Below are positions 22,031 to 31,534 of a DNA stretch of 32,001 nt, piece after piece. Each line of letters opens with the position of its first letter. Position 1 is the stretch's first letter. The DNA is taken from positions 1-32,001 of the forward strand of contig CANRNS010000015.1 of assembly GCA_947632055.1 (NCBI GenBank). Direction: 5' to 3'. The position numbers and the translations under genes are program-made. This DNA is from an uncultured Akkermansia sp. (GTDB taxonomy: Bacteria; Verrucomicrobiota; Verrucomicrobiia; Verrucomicrobiales; Akkermansiaceae). The notes under the pieces are model-generated. The model saw only the letters and a program-made list of their open reading frames with translations. It was not told where the DNA came from and made no database searches.

Positions 22031-22214
22031 TCTCTTTTTGAAAGAGATAGTCAGACATATGGAGGCAACATGATATTAATGAAGGGGTAACGGTAGCGCC
22101 TTTTCAAAATAAGGTGAGATACGTGGAAACAATTTCGATTGGTTTAATTTCCTCTAGCAATTTTTATTCAAGGGTCGCATAATTTGGAACTTGACTATCT
22201 CTTTCAAAAAGAGA
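22031..22214. repeat. 23-bp perfect inverted repeat TCTCTTTTTGAAAGAGATAGTCA / TGACTATCTCTTTCAAAAAGAGA, 138-bp spacer
   Basis: Arms 22031-22053 and 22192-22214 are exact reverse complements. Confidence 0.95.
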
Positions 22215-22220
22215 TATACT
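22191..22220 (+). promoter_or_regulatory. Predicted promoter TTGACT-N18-TATACT overlapping the right inverted-repeat arm
   Basis: TTGACT 22191-22196, TATACT 22215-22220, about 60 nt before ATG 22281. Confidence 0.55.
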
Positions 22221-25473: not shown

Positions 25474-25648
25474 ATTTGCATGATGCTCCCATAAAGCAAA
25501 AAGCTCACTACCTGGAGCCAATGCTTCGCCTCTCGTCAGCTACGCGACCTCGTCGTATTCAATCGACAATCCTCTTCTTCTTAAACCTCTCCGAATGCTC
25601 GTCCTCCTTCAGCACGACCACCTTGGCGGGAATCTTGTAGCGGGCGAG
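25474..25648. repeat. Direct repeat copy B of 21648-21822
   Basis: See copy A; includes ligase 3' end and 85 bp downstream. Confidence 0.92.
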
Positions 25649-26863
25649 CCGGGTCTTGCAGAAGTCAACCACCCTTCGTTTTGCCTCCATGGCGGTGAGC
25701 GGCTCGTTGAAGAGCATTTTTGCCGCCACCATCTGCCCCGTGATGGGGTTTTTCTCCGCGTACACGGTGCAATCCAGCACGCCCGGCATTTGGTAAAGGA
25801 CAGACTCCACCTCGGAGGGCAACACCTTTTCCCCGCCCACGTTAATCATCTCCTTGTTGCGCCCAATGATGCGGATGTAGCCATCCTTCCCCATCTCCAC
25901 AAGATCCCCCGTCCTGAACCACCCATCGTCCGTGAAGCGCTCCATGGAGGCGTTGAGATACCCCATGATCTGCGTCTTGCTGCGTAGCCACAGCTCCCCG
26001 TCCACCACCTTGTACTCCGTGCCGGGATCATCAATCTTGATGAAGTTGGCTTTGCTCGTGGTCTGCGTGATGCCCGTCTCGCTCGTGCCGAACGTCTGCA
26101 GGAACTTCACACGCGGGAACCCCTCCTTCAACTTCACCAGCAGGCTATCCGGCATCGGCTCCGTGCCGTACGTGATCATCCGCAGCGAGCTGAGGTCGTA
26201 CCTCTCGGTGACTCCGCTGATGAGCATGAGGTTGAGAAACGTGGGAGAGGCTGGCAGCACATTGACCCTGTGCCGCTCGATGAGCTGAGCCACGTGTTCG
26301 GGATTCCGATCCGCCGGGAACACCATGGTCACCCCCATCGCCAGGCAGTTGAGCAGCGTATTGAGACCGCCGATGTGGTCGAACATGAGGAAGATCAAGA
26401 ACACCAGCTTCTTCCCGCGTTTCCCCTTGTAGGAGTCCACCAGATGGTCCAGGTCGTGGATCATCGCCTTGGGCGCCCCCGTCGACCCGCTGCTAAAGAG
26501 GATCAGCCCGGAATGTCCGCGTTCCTTGAGCTGTTTCACGAGTTCGAACCGTTCAGTAGATGGGCTCAGGCTCTGCACCTTAAGCTCACCATCTGCAATA
26601 TCGATCCGCACCTCGCACCGCGCCGTCTGCAATCGGCCTTCGATCTCCTCCTCCACGCGGGTGGTGATGGGCACGACGATCGCCTTAAGTTCGTGGAGCG
26701 CAAAGAACAGGGCGATGGCTTCAAAGGTGTAGTCCGATACTAGCGCCACCACGGTTCCGGGCACGGCCTGCTCCTTCAGCCGCTCCCTGTACGCGGCAGT
26801 CTGCTCATGGAGCCGGGCGTAGTTGTACTCTCCGGCGGGGAAGATTAAACGTGCGTTTTCCAT
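25559..26863 (-). CDS. AMP-dependent synthetase/ligase (acyl-activating; DltA-like role proposed)
   Basis: GLILFSSGSTGAPKAMIHD, TFGTSETG, GWFRTGDLVEMGKDGYIRIIGRNKEMINVGGEKV; start re-assigned to MENARLIF. Confidence 0.88.
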   Translation of the reverse strand: MENARLIFPAGEYNYARLHEQTAAYRERLKEQAVPGTVVALVSDYTFEAIALFFALHELKAIVVPITTRVEEEIEGRLQTARCEVRIDIADGELKVQSLSPSTERFELVKQLKERGHSGLILFSSGSTGAPKAMIHDLDHLVDSYKGKRGKKLVFLIFLMFDHIGGLNTLLNCLAMGVTMVFPADRNPEHVAQLIERHRVNVLPASPTFLNLMLISGVTERYDLSSLRMITYGTEPMPDSLLVKLKEGFPRVKFLQTFGTSETGITQTTSKANFIKIDDPGTEYKVVDGELWLRSKTQIMGYLNASMERFTDDGWFRTGDLVEMGKDGYIRIIGRNKEMINVGGEKVLPSEVESVLYQMPGVLDCTVYAEKNPITGQMVAAKMLFNEPLTAMEAKRRVVDFCKTRLARYKIPAKVVVLKEDEHSERFKKKRIVD

Positions 26864-26864
26864 A

Positions 26865-27563
26865 TCAGTTGATACCTCCCAGATAGATGATTTGCCCCGT
26901 GATGAAGTCACTCTCCGGGCGCAGGTAGAAATCGATGACGTTCTTCACGTCCTCGCACTTTCCGAAGCGTTTGATGCTCTGTCGGTCGATGAGCGCCCGG
27001 ATCTTCTCGGCGGGGACGTTTTTGATGAGGTCCGTGTCGATGGGCGTGGGCCCCACGGCGTTGACGGTCACCCCCGACTGCCCGATCTCCCCTGCCAGCA
27101 CGCGGGTGAGCTGCTCGATAGCGGCCTTGGAGGCGGAATATACGAGCTCGCCCTGCAGGTTGAGCGGCACGGCCACGGTGGAGTAATTGACGATACGCCC
27201 CTGCTTGCGGCGCATCATGTACTTCGCCACCTCGCGGCTCATGAGGAAGGTCCCGAGGAAATTGGTCCCCATCACCTTCTGCGCCGTTGAGCCGGGGGTG
27301 AGCAGCACATGGTTCATCGAGGCGATCCCGGCGTTGTTGATGAGCACATCGATGCGCTTCTGCTCCTTGTGGACATCGCGCACCCAGGCTACAACGGCTT
27401 CCTCATCCGCCACATTGAGGCAGGTGTGGTGGTAATTGGGATGGGAAATATCGCAGGCGCGGCGGCTACAGCCATACACAATATCTCCCTCCTCAAGGTA
27501 GCACTGCGCCAGGTAATTCCCTATCCCCTTACGCGTTCCGGTGATGATGATGACCCGGTTCAT
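26865..27563 (-). CDS. SDR-family oxidoreductase (FabG-like)
   Basis: MNRVIIITGTRKGIGNYLAQ, LINNAGIASMNHV, YSASKAAIEQLTRVLAGE. Confidence 0.88.
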   Translation of the reverse strand: MNRVIIITGTRKGIGNYLAQCYLEEGDIVYGCSRRACDISHPNYHHTCLNVADEEAVVAWVRDVHKEQKRIDVLINNAGIASMNHVLLTPGSTAQKVMGTNFLGTFLMSREVAKYMMRRKQGRIVNYSTVAVPLNLQGELVYSASKAAIEQLTRVLAGEIGQSGVTVNAVGPTPIDTDLIKNVPAEKIRALIDRQSIKRFGKCEDVKNVIDFYLRPESDFITGQIIYLGGIN

Positions 27564-27564
27564 A

Positions 27565-27858
27565 TCACTCCGTGATGCCTATTTGGTCAGCTATATAGTT
27601 GCAGAGCGAGCCAATGGAGCGGAATGGACTGATGCGCGCGGACATAGCGCTCTCCGACGCCAGGGAAACTTCCGCCCCCTGCTCATTGCATGCCGTTTCA
27701 ATGTCGATAATGACACTGACCAGCCCCAGAGAATCCAGCACACTCTTGCTGCCGAGCAAGGGCGTGTTAACCGTCAGTTCCGGTGTGTCGATCCCATTCT
27801 GTTCACAGTAATCCCGAAGGACATCCATGATGATTTGCTGTATCTTTTCTTTGTTCAT
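27565..27858 (-). CDS. Acyl-carrier-protein-like protein
   Basis: 97 aa acidic; LLGSKSVLDSLGLVSVIIDIE with phosphopantetheine-attachment DSL motif. Confidence 0.8.
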   Translation of the reverse strand: MNKEKIQQIIMDVLRDYCEQNGIDTPELTVNTPLLGSKSVLDSLGLVSVIIDIETACNEQGAEVSLASESAMSARISPFRSIGSLCNYIADQIGITE

Positions 27859-27936
27859 AGCGGTGGTAGTGTGGTTGGTTTGGTGATAAGGTTTGTGGTG
27901 ATGATTGCGGGCGTCCCCGGTTGGTTACACGTACGG

Positions 27937-29397
27937 TTAGAATCTGAAATAGATGAACGGATTATAGGTCGATGCGGCGATAGAGGCAGCCGACAGGACG
28001 AAGAGCGCGAGCAGCCAGAGATTCACCGCCGCTATCCGCAGCTGGCTCCTCCCCTCTACCTCCAGCATCTTGCGGCACAGCGGCATCGAGCATGCAATGG
28101 CCAGGACCAGAACAATGATCTCAGGACGATCCACGTAGTAGATGAGACGGTAAATGCTCTCCCCGCTCTCTGCGCCGAACATGGTTAAGAGATAATGCCA
28201 GGCGTACTGCATGGTGTCCGACCTAAAAATGACCAACCCCAGGATGATCACAAGCATCGCATAAAAATGCTGCAACGCCTTGCCACCGACACTTTTCCGG
28301 TCCCGGTTCCATCCGGTCAGGGTCTCAACAAAGATAAAGAAGCCGTTGTAGAGCCCCCACACGATAAAGGTCCATCCCGCACCGTGCCAGAACCCGGTCG
28401 AAAACCAGACGATCAGGAGAGCAACGAACGTCATGAGCGCATTGGCTGTTTTGTTGCCCACCTTTTTCATCATCCACCTGTAGCTCCGTGAAATGACCGT
28501 GTTGCGCGCGAGAGGCAGGAACATGATCGGCATGAACATGTAATCCCTGAACCAGCTCCCCAGTGAGATGTGCCAGCGTCGCCAGTACTCCGTGATACTG
28601 CGCGAGATGTACGGATAATTGAAGTTCTCCAGGAACTTGAACCCGAAGATGGAGCCGAGGCCGATCGCCATATCCGAGTATCCGCTGAAGTCGTAGTAGA
28701 TCTGGAAGGTGTAGCAGATTGCTCCCAGCCAGGTAGTCACGCAATCCAGCTGCTCGATCGGTTGAGAGAAAACTTTGTCGGCCATAGCTCCCAAGGTGTT
28801 AGCGATGAGAACCTTCTTGGCGAGTCCCACGATGAAGCGTTTCACACCGTACGTCACCTTCTCGAAGTCCACTGTGCGGCGCTCAAGTTGGTCGGCTACA
28901 TCGTGGTACTTGACGATGGGACCCGCCACCAGCTGCGGGAAGAGGGATATATAGAGCGCAAGCTTGTAGATGTTTTTCTGAGGCTCGACCTCCTCCCGAT
29001 AGACATCCACCACGTAGCTGATGGCCTGGAAGGTATAGAAGGAAATGCCAATGGGCATGATAGCCTTGATGAGACGAATATGCCCGCCGAAGAGTTCATT
29101 GATGTTCTCGATAAAGAAGTTGCAATATTTGAAGTAGAACAAAAAGCTCAGGTTACCCAGAATGGTAAGGAGTAGCCAAATTTTCTTTTTTTCGTATTTT
29201 GAAATGAGGATCGCGCCGGTGTAGTTGATGACGATAATGAGAAGCATCACCAGCACGTAACGCGGCTCTCCCCATGCATAGAAAAAGATACTTGCCAGCA
29301 GCAGAACGTGGTCCCGAAATTCCCTCCGCACCAAAAGGTACAAGACACAGACGATCGGCAGGAACAGGAACAAAAATGTTGAGGATGAGAATAACAT
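27937..29397 (-). CDS. MBOAT-family O-acyltransferase (AlgI/DltB-like)
   Basis: YFSFFPQLVAGPI-like ISLFPQLVAGPIVKYHDVADQL, SYSDMAIGLGSIFGF-like, SITEYWRRWHISLGSWFRDYMFMPI, GFWHGAGWTFIVWGLYNG. Confidence 0.93.
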   Translation of the reverse strand: MLFSSSTFLFLFLPIVCVLYLLVRREFRDHVLLLASIFFYAWGEPRYVLVMLLIIVINYTGAILISKYEKKKIWLLLTILGNLSFLFYFKYCNFFIENINELFGGHIRLIKAIMPIGISFYTFQAISYVVDVYREEVEPQKNIYKLALYISLFPQLVAGPIVKYHDVADQLERRTVDFEKVTYGVKRFIVGLAKKVLIANTLGAMADKVFSQPIEQLDCVTTWLGAICYTFQIYYDFSGYSDMAIGLGSIFGFKFLENFNYPYISRSITEYWRRWHISLGSWFRDYMFMPIMFLPLARNTVISRSYRWMMKKVGNKTANALMTFVALLIVWFSTGFWHGAGWTFIVWGLYNGFFIFVETLTGWNRDRKSVGGKALQHFYAMLVIILGLVIFRSDTMQYAWHYLLTMFGAESGESIYRLIYYVDRPEIIVLVLAIACSMPLCRKMLEVEGRSQLRIAAVNLWLLALFVLSAASIAASTYNPFIYFRF

Positions 29398-29400
29398 GGC

Positions 29401-31311
29401 TTATTGGGTGGAAAAGATATCACTAAGATATGGCATATGCCCCGGTCCAATGGAAATCACGAGAATATCCGGATGAAAAGAGAGAATTTCCTTTTCATAT
29501 AACTTCATGATCTTATACGTATCGATTCCCCTGGTCCAACCGGTATTCAATCTGATGTATCTTGTTCGAAACGCCGAATACGGCAAAAATTGGAGAAAAT
29601 CTTCATTCTGGGATGTGCCCATCAGCATGATATTGTATTTGCCCTTAGGATAGGTGAAATCTTTGGTGCTCTTTCCGACTTTCAGCTCTATTTTGTCAGC
29701 ATCTTTGTGATCATAGTAGATGTATGCAACACCGTTTACAGGCGGTTGATTAAGATTAAATGCCCTTTTGAAATATCCCGGATGATAATTTCTTGACCAA
29801 TCATCGCGGATGAGGCAATTCCTGGATTTTTTGCAGTCGTTGAGAGAAACAACAGGTATATCCGGGAAATCACGCTGTACCTCTTTCATCAATTCGCTGT
29901 ATCCAATATATGCCCCCCAATCCGTCCAATGATGGAGACGCTTGAAAAATACAAGATCCTGTTTTGAGGCATCGCAAAGTGCGTCGTACGGATAGACGTA
30001 GGGAATTTGGTGCTTTCTTACTTTCTTTAGAACGTCGTCATGTATTTGAGAGAATTGAACAAGAGGCGACTCATTAAAGCCGTATTTTTCTTTGATGATA
30101 TTTTTATAAACGCTTTCCTTTCTAGGGACTTCTAGCACGTAAAGTTTAATGTTGTTTTCTTGGCAGAATTTATTCAGTTGAACCAAATTCTTAACGATTG
30201 ATTGTTGGGTTGCCTGTAGATAATCTTTATTGGCAAGGGAGTTTACATCAAAATACCAATCATCTTGAGGAAAATAAATAGTACCTTTTCCACGCAAAAT
30301 AATGGACAATTCGTTTCGAATAGAATCGTGCAGTTGAATTAAAGCATCATGTCCGGAAAAATGATCATTTAACCAATCTTCGTATCTTTTGCCGTAGTCG
30401 GAATTCCTTTCAAAGAAATGTTTAAACGCTGGCTTTTCATATAGCATTCTGTTTTCCCGCACTGATCTCACCGCATCAGTGATATGTGTCATTGGAAAAA
30501 AAAGAAGGAAGAAGAACACCACCGTGAATATCACGTTGCAGGGTTGGAGATGTCTCTTCCGCTTTTCAAGGAGACGGAGCAACCGATAAAGCAGGAAGAA
30601 AAAGAGGAGATTCCCCGCAACAACATAACGAATTTTCCCGGATTTCAACCAGGTGAAGTCGCGGAGGGAAACACGATGCCTACGGAATTCAACTTCAATT
30701 TCAAGACGCTCATTTTTCTTGACAGAAAAGGATTGGGCGTAGTCCCCCTCATAGGCGCAATTCCCGGGCTCGTCGAACATCAAGTCATGGTTAAACTTAG
30801 GTGGCACCTGCTTTTCGACCGGAACGGATCGATCGACATCCCCCACATAGGAAAACGTCTTAGACTCGGTAAAGATTTGCTTGCCGTTGATTTTTAAATT
30901 CCTCCAGTCGGTTAACACATTGAAGGGCTCCTCATACTCATTACGCGCATCAGGTCCTACGTCAGGCCCCCTCATCAGTAGGGTTATCGTGCCATCGTGA
31001 AGAGCCTCAAGCTGAAGCGTAACCTTTTGCCATTCGCCCCGTGCTCTCAGGGTGAGATTGGCCCGCCTCGTGTTGTTGTCCTCATCCCCGCACCCGTACC
31101 AATAAAGTGTATCAACAGGCTGGGGACAACATTGGAGCCGAAAGGGTTCCACTGCTGTGAATTCCCCGGAATACACCACATCGAGGCGAGCTTCATCGTT
31201 GAAAAGAGTGCGAACAAAACTGCTGTAATCATATTCGGTCCACAACGGCAGACACAAAATATTGGCAAAGAGGGTCAGGCAAAAGGTAATCAGCAATATC
31301 TTTACACGCAT
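29401..31311 (-). CDS. AlgX/AlgJ/DHHW (SGNH-hydrolase-like) acetylation partner; start re-assigned to MRVKILLITF
   Basis: N-terminal TM, second TM region; FFKRLHHWTDWGAYIGYSELM motif, downstream MBOAT; start at 31386 would precede the predicted promoter. Confidence 0.78.
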   Translation of the reverse strand: MRVKILLITFCLTLFANILCLPLWTEYDYSSFVRTLFNDEARLDVVYSGEFTAVEPFRLQCCPQPVDTLYWYGCGDEDNNTRRANLTLRARGEWQKVTLQLEALHDGTITLLMRGPDVGPDARNEYEEPFNVLTDWRNLKINGKQIFTESKTFSYVGDVDRSVPVEKQVPPKFNHDLMFDEPGNCAYEGDYAQSFSVKKNERLEIEVEFRRHRVSLRDFTWLKSGKIRYVVAGNLLFFFLLYRLLRLLEKRKRHLQPCNVIFTVVFFFLLFFPMTHITDAVRSVRENRMLYEKPAFKHFFERNSDYGKRYEDWLNDHFSGHDALIQLHDSIRNELSIILRGKGTIYFPQDDWYFDVNSLANKDYLQATQQSIVKNLVQLNKFCQENNIKLYVLEVPRKESVYKNIIKEKYGFNESPLVQFSQIHDDVLKKVRKHQIPYVYPYDALCDASKQDLVFFKRLHHWTDWGAYIGYSELMKEVQRDFPDIPVVSLNDCKKSRNCLIRDDWSRNYHPGYFKRAFNLNQPPVNGVAYIYYDHKDADKIELKVGKSTKDFTYPKGKYNIMLMGTSQNEDFLQFLPYSAFRTRYIRLNTGWTRGIDTYKIMKLYEKEILSFHPDILVISIGPGHMPYLSDIFSTQ

Positions 31312-31344
31312 AGGCTCTCTCAGTTTCTGCCGAACGGCGGGGCG

Positions 31345-31373
31345 AGTATATCTCTTTTGGAAAGCGATGTCCA
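31345..31373 (-). promoter_or_regulatory. Predicted promoter TGGACA-N17-TATACT overlapping the left inverted-repeat arm
   Basis: Minus strand TGGACA (31368-31373), 17 nt, TATACT (31345-31350), about 33 nt before ATG 31311. Confidence 0.55.
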
Positions 31374-31534
31374 GCACGTTTTCCAAAATAACGTGACATT
31401 GTGCGACTTGTGAGGCAGAAACAATAAACTATGCTTTAAACCAAAGCATAGATCAATTGGAAAAACAGACTACAAATGCTTCTTTTTAAGCTAGTATGTC
31501 ATACAGGAAGAGAGCATCGCTTTCCAAAAGAGAT
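31350..31534. repeat. 20-bp perfect inverted repeat ATCTCTTTTGGAAAGCGATG / CATCGCTTTCCAAAAGAGAT, 145-bp spacer
   Basis: Arms 31350-31369 and 31515-31534 are exact reverse complements. Confidence 0.95.
31429..31451 (-). terminator. Hairpin CTATGCTTT-(5 nt)-AAAGCATAG followed on the minus strand by TTTATTGTTT
   Basis: 9-bp perfect stem inside the inverted-repeat spacer; T-rich only on the minus strand. Confidence 0.45.

Follow-up and report, generated by a model that had tools for sequence, protein, structure and literature searches.

The window, which is the whole stretch of 32,001 nucleotides of Akkermansia DNA that was analysed, contains a minus-strand operon at positions 25559-31311. Its first gene (29401-31311, with ATG at 31311) encodes an AlgX-like protein of the SGNH family (PF16822, 2.1e-13), followed by genes for an MBOAT O-acyltransferase (27937-29397, PF03062), a 97-amino acid acyl-carrier-like protein with a DSL motif (27565-27858), a short-chain dehydrogenase/reductase (SDR, 26865-27563) and an AMP-forming acyl ligase (25559-26911, PF00501). 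Pfam matches agree with the names that a preliminary description of this DNA had given to the AlgX-like, MBOAT, SDR and ligase genes; the putative acyl carrier protein (ACP) has the DSL motif and no match in Pfam or NCBIfam. The set of ligase, carrier, MBOAT and SGNH-like proteins resembles a Dlt-type acylation system supplemented with an SDR, and judging from this family composition, the operon may serve to decorate a surface glycan with an acyl group. AlgX-like relatives are present in multiple copies in some congeners.

Upstream of this operon lies an inverted repeat with arms at 31350-31369 and 31515-31534, each of 20 nt, 100% complementary and 145 nt apart, exactly to the base as initially described. 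When 40 windows were simulated with a Markov model, perfect inverted repeats with spacers of 20-500 nt reached an arm length of 14 nt at most. The real window contains one perfect repeat of 20 nt and one of 23 nt in the same spacer range, and the 20-bp repeat is far above chance expectation. The gene-proximal arm contains a 17-bp recombination core at 31351-31367 (TCTCTTTTGGAAAGCGA on the plus strand) and the distal arm a core at 31517-31533. Both are intact and have the centre TGG in common. By analogy with homologous switches, the segment between the two cores (31368-31516) would be the part that is inverted.

A second element of the same sequence family is found in the window at 22031-22214 (arms 22031-22053 and 22192-22214, cores 22031-22047 and 22198-22214), as expected from the claim that the locus carries two switches of one design. 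Here a TATACT at 22215-22220 is placed as -10 hexamer before plus-strand genes, and this sister switch is predicted to drive the convergent plus-strand genes from 22281.

Promoter geometry at the inverted repeat

On the minus strand, exactly 17 nt separate a TGGACA (31373-31368) from a TATACT (31350-31345), in agreement with the earlier placement of the gene-proximal arm between a -35 and a -10 hexamer, and these 17 nt are the core itself (TCGCTTTCCAAAAGAGA on the minus strand). The predicted -10 thus lies directly outside the core in fixed DNA, and the predicted -35 of the ON state directly inside the core, on the invertible segment. As also anticipated, the distal arm lacks TATACT and has TGAGCA on its outer side instead, and the hexamer directly inside it reads AGAGCA (31511-31516, plus strand). 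This hexamer would replace TGGACA after inversion, in the predicted OFF state.

The preference of the preliminary description for ATG 31311 over a start at 31386 is sensible, since the TTG at 31386 lies within the invertible segment and upstream of the predicted transcription start near 31338, and GAGAG is found just 5' of ATG 31311. The invertible segment also contains a hairpin (CTATGCTTTAAACCAAAGCATAG, 31429-31451) that is terminator-like on the minus strand. Insulation by terminators was considered as a feature of the whole family and rejected, with hairpins in 6 of 66 segments versus 2 expected.

A family of related sites in the genome and the genus

The core consensus of the arms is TCTCTTT-NNN-AAAGAGA (17 bp). 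Allowing at most 2 mismatches, and with near-palindromic core sites counted on both strands, the genome of the window contains 70 forward and 68 reverse matches, compared with 0 and 1 for a control pattern read backwards. They correspond to about 80 core sites in about 34 clusters (switches) of two to four sites, and in two-site switches the distance from core to core is mostly 165-170 bp. In the unselected site list, the central three bases (TTG, TCG, TCA, TGG or TTA) match within nearly all neighbouring sites, as expected of a strand-exchange or overlap region, which must be identical. The list of 66 paired switches used below required a matching centre and therefore cannot test this point.

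Breadth was judged from a sample of genomes of the genus and not from matches to the exact promoter. At least 5 forward core matches were found in 13 of 59 Akkermansia genomes, namely the window's own and 12 of 58 other congeners. The exact ON promoter matched one contig record (Akkermansia sp., sample Lapin) in a set outside of which near-identical records possibly exist.

Large predicted surface proteins with the common leader MKLHLPTGLRKALLACLA are encoded directly downstream of many switches (L083, L091, L098, L081 and others), and one of them has a weak autotransporter repeat match. Further switches precede a glycosyltransferase-like protein and other genes. Some switches of the window's genome have three or four sites (L073, L080, L081, L083, L084, L088, L092, L094, L100), spaced about 80-170 bp apart in a mixture of inverted and direct pairs, and could allow deletions or a choice of three or more promoter states. 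Inverted repeats with other arm sequences and spacers of 131-138 nt (L082:6486-6665, L091:5782-5950) possibly represent other inverton families.

Predicted promoter hexamers beside the core across the family

Promoter profiles were compiled over four species for 66 two-site switches (132 sites), with up to one mismatch tolerated per hexamer. Directly inside the core, 33 of the 132 sites carry a match to TTGACA, compared with 0-6 for other offsets; directly outside it, 19 of the 132 carry a match to TATAAT, compared with 0-2 for other positions. When the 66 switches were read inward, no -35 match was found at the core-abutting position. Among these 66, the two inner ends of a switch never both had a strict -35 (p = 0.004). 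With a broader hexamer definition, drawn up after the hexamers had been inspected, exactly one -35 was found in 47 of 66 switches and exactly one -10 in 40 of 66; the 32 switches with one of each divide into 21 predicted to be OFF and 11 predicted to be ON. Even by this definition, 16 of 66 switches are without a recognisable -35 and 23 of 66 without a recognisable -10, so that not every switch fits the simple scheme. Four switches (L072, L079, L086, L087) have TATACT on the inner side without a clear -35 and fall outside a simple ON/OFF rule.

These profiles indicate that the recombination core itself is the 17-bp spacer of the predicted promoter, with the -10 just outside and the -35 just inside, an arrangement in which inversion would exchange the -35. 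The flanks of the core follow the pattern T[AG]NNC[AT] (138 outer and 142 inner flanks of 199), and we infer that it marks the outermost stretch of the recombinase half-site, where this overlaps with the hexamers of the promoter.

Orientation of homologous segments

Genomes G000 and G016 have orthologous copies of a three-site switch, located upstream of a large surface protein, in opposite orientation: the flanks on either side are colinear on the plus strand, and between them 336 bp align on the minus strand with 97.6% identity. In genome G020, two loci with downstream flanks that are 92% identical have the segment flipped between them, and TGTACA stands against TATACT at one locus and not at the other. 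G078 and the genome of the window each contain more orientation-discordant pairs. As read from these alignments, both orientations occur at homologous switches, between as well as within genomes. The initial proposal of a promoter switched by replacement of its -35 is supported by these homologues, by the roughly 34 switches of the same design and by the family-wide inner -35 and outer -10.

The 31.35-kb locus is represented by a single state, predicted to be ON, in the one assembly, and its orthologue in G026 (L144:3443-3636) has the same orientation. This orthologue keeps the inverted repeat at 24 of 25 positions, yet a half-site has become CAGCATT in each of its arms, which implies that the arms evolved together. 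When 1.5 kb was searched at AlgX-like relatives in other species, TCTCTTT-type sites were found at the G026 orthologue only.

In a comparison of two species, the segment of L081:55-390 is 97.6-99.3% identical to its counterpart in L173, and the flanks are 80-91% identical over most of their length, a contrast that suggests cassette exchange or conversion.

Candidate recombinases

The serine recombinase family PF00239 has no match in the genome of the window (assembly 87% complete), and a serine invertase was rejected as the enzyme on this ground. The same genome encodes six related tyrosine recombinases, among them three closely similar copies (C26, C20 and C130, 88-93% identical). At a threshold of at least 70% identity, the group of these three is represented in 12 of 13 motif-rich and in 0 of 46 other genomes. 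The C71 group is represented in 13 of 13 and 0 of 46, and the C67 group in 10 of 13 and 0 of 46. In all three comparisons, thresholds were set post hoc and kinship between genomes was ignored, so that p-values exaggerate the association, and the co-occurrence of recombinases and motif may be explained by clade history or shared ancestry. The co-occurring paralogue groups narrow the list of candidates without singling one out. Judged by co-occurrence, the likely enzyme is a tyrosine recombinase. A recombinase located beside its own switch was also considered; the stretches around C20, C26, C64, C67 and C130 contain no convincing site pair, and we therefore assume that the enzyme acts in trans.

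A split-promoter switch as the favoured interpretation

The element at 31.35 kb is very probably a phase-variable switch, in which site-specific inversion splits and restores a promoter. The geometry, its recurrence in genome and genus and the two orientations of homologous switches can be read directly in the DNA; flipping and promoter activity at 31.35 kb, like the assignment of the enzyme, are deductions. Each site would consist of the 17-bp core TCTCTTT-NNN-AAAGAGA, with the three central bases setting polarity and pairing, and the core would exactly span the 17 bp between the hexamers of a sigma-70-type promoter. TATACT would stay beside the gene, outside the segment, and TGGACA would travel with the segment, at one of its ends. 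Recombination between the two inverted sites would be the work of a tyrosine recombinase supplied in trans. In the assembled state TGGACA faces TATACT, and the AlgX-like/MBOAT/ACP/SDR/ligase operon is predicted to be ON; after inversion, AGAGCA would take the place of the -35 and the operon would be OFF.

A former switch that is now locked, leaving a fixed constitutive promoter, would be in keeping with the predicted ON state as the only one seen at 31.35 kb, and with a G026 orthologue of the same orientation that has a degenerate half-site in both arms. The arms of a dead pair are expected to diverge, however, and those at 31.35 kb agree at all 20 positions, their cores being intact and having the same centre, as elsewhere in the family. 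We consider a locked switch unlikely. Invertible promoters are usually pictured as contained entirely within the segment, from which they fire outward in one of the two orientations, and PMC11892184 speaks of inverton-embedded promoters. Such an arrangement is very unlikely here, given that the best promoter match reaches across the arm to a -10 on the outer side, and that the family-wide profiles put -35 and -10 on opposite sides at a fixed distance.

It is also conceivable that the arms do not recombine at all, and are binding sites of a dimeric regulator or hold a DNA loop. A near-palindromic core would suit a dimeric regulator, and the narrow spacing of sites is compatible with this idea. 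Homologous segments are nevertheless found in both orientations relative to conserved flanks, the three central bases match within pairs as an overlap region requires, and the sister CGGATT family has been reported to flip (PMC13343947, PMC11892184). We therefore give a regulator or loop hardly any credence.

For Akkermansia more generally, we lean towards regarding recombinase site and promoter as one object, in which the core is the spacer and the hexamers are the outer portions of the half-sites. Inversion would re-pair -35 and -10, recombinase and RNA polymerase would compete, and multi-site arrays would have more than two states. The same geometry would have been reached by two unrelated cores, and a separate recombinase presumably serves each of them. 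If the split-promoter interpretation is true, an assembled sequence would suffice to predict the ON/OFF state of many Akkermansia surface operons, since a switch should be active solely when a -35 is paired with a -10. This would provide a compact rule for predicting phase-variable operons in an important gut commensal, nominate a few recombinases, and point to competition between recombination and transcription for a shared piece of DNA.

Comparison with known systems

Invertons of A. muciniphila with the motif CGGATT..AATCCG were reportedly described by Jiang in 2019, as cited by others. As in invertons generally, inverted repeats at 31.35 kb flank a short segment upstream of a gene. The CGGATT family, which is group 138 in PMC11892184, is reported to flip and to be located upstream of capsule, autotransporter or PEP-CTERM genes (PMC13343947, PMC11892184); for its cps1 inverton, flipping has been shown by experiment, as has a correlation with the capsule (PMC13343947). 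In our comparison, this family (CGGATTNNNAATCCG) has the same geometry as the TCTCTTT family and an unrelated core. Both occur in the same genus, with sites about 150-330 bp apart and a 3-nt centre between half-sites, and both have the -35 inside and the -10 outside at 17-bp spacing, a feature found here that was not a criterion of the original authors. In contrast, the half-site sequences are unrelated, and the 31.35-kb core does not contain CGGATT-NNN-AATCCG. Genomes rich in CGGATT that were scanned for both motifs (G004, G059, G071, G075) had 0-1 TCTCTTT matches.

Of the 78 sites in 39 CGGATT switches from two genomes, 30 sites, in 30 of the 39 switches, have a TTGACA-like hexamer (at most 1 mismatch) set exactly 1 nt inward of the 15-mer, at a distance of 17 nt from the outer hexamer. 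No switch had a -35 at both ends (0 of 39, p = 7e-5). The -10 signal was weaker than in the TCTCTTT family. In G075, the copy that precedes wza has the arrangement TTGACA-17-TAATTA.

Phase-variable invertible promoters are already known in Akkermansia; the site family and the split geometry are apparently new, as we did not find a description of either in the literature, Jiang 2019 being outside the scope of the search. In Bacteroides, many capsule promoters of the Mpi type are flipped in parallel by a serine recombinase, varying the cell surface, and each promoter lies wholly inside its segment. The Akkermansia switches likewise appear to invert many promoters in parallel to vary the cell surface, but in their case the crossover divides the promoter, and the candidates are tyrosine recombinases only. 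Tyrosine recombinases also invert the short promoter segment fimS of E. coli, which is a single locus with the whole promoter inside, compared with dozens of loci and a split promoter in Akkermansia. At the circle junctions of insertion sequences, recombination joins a -35 and a -10 at fixed spacing; the Akkermansia elements differ in that there are no transposon ends, and in that the joining would be a reversible inversion.
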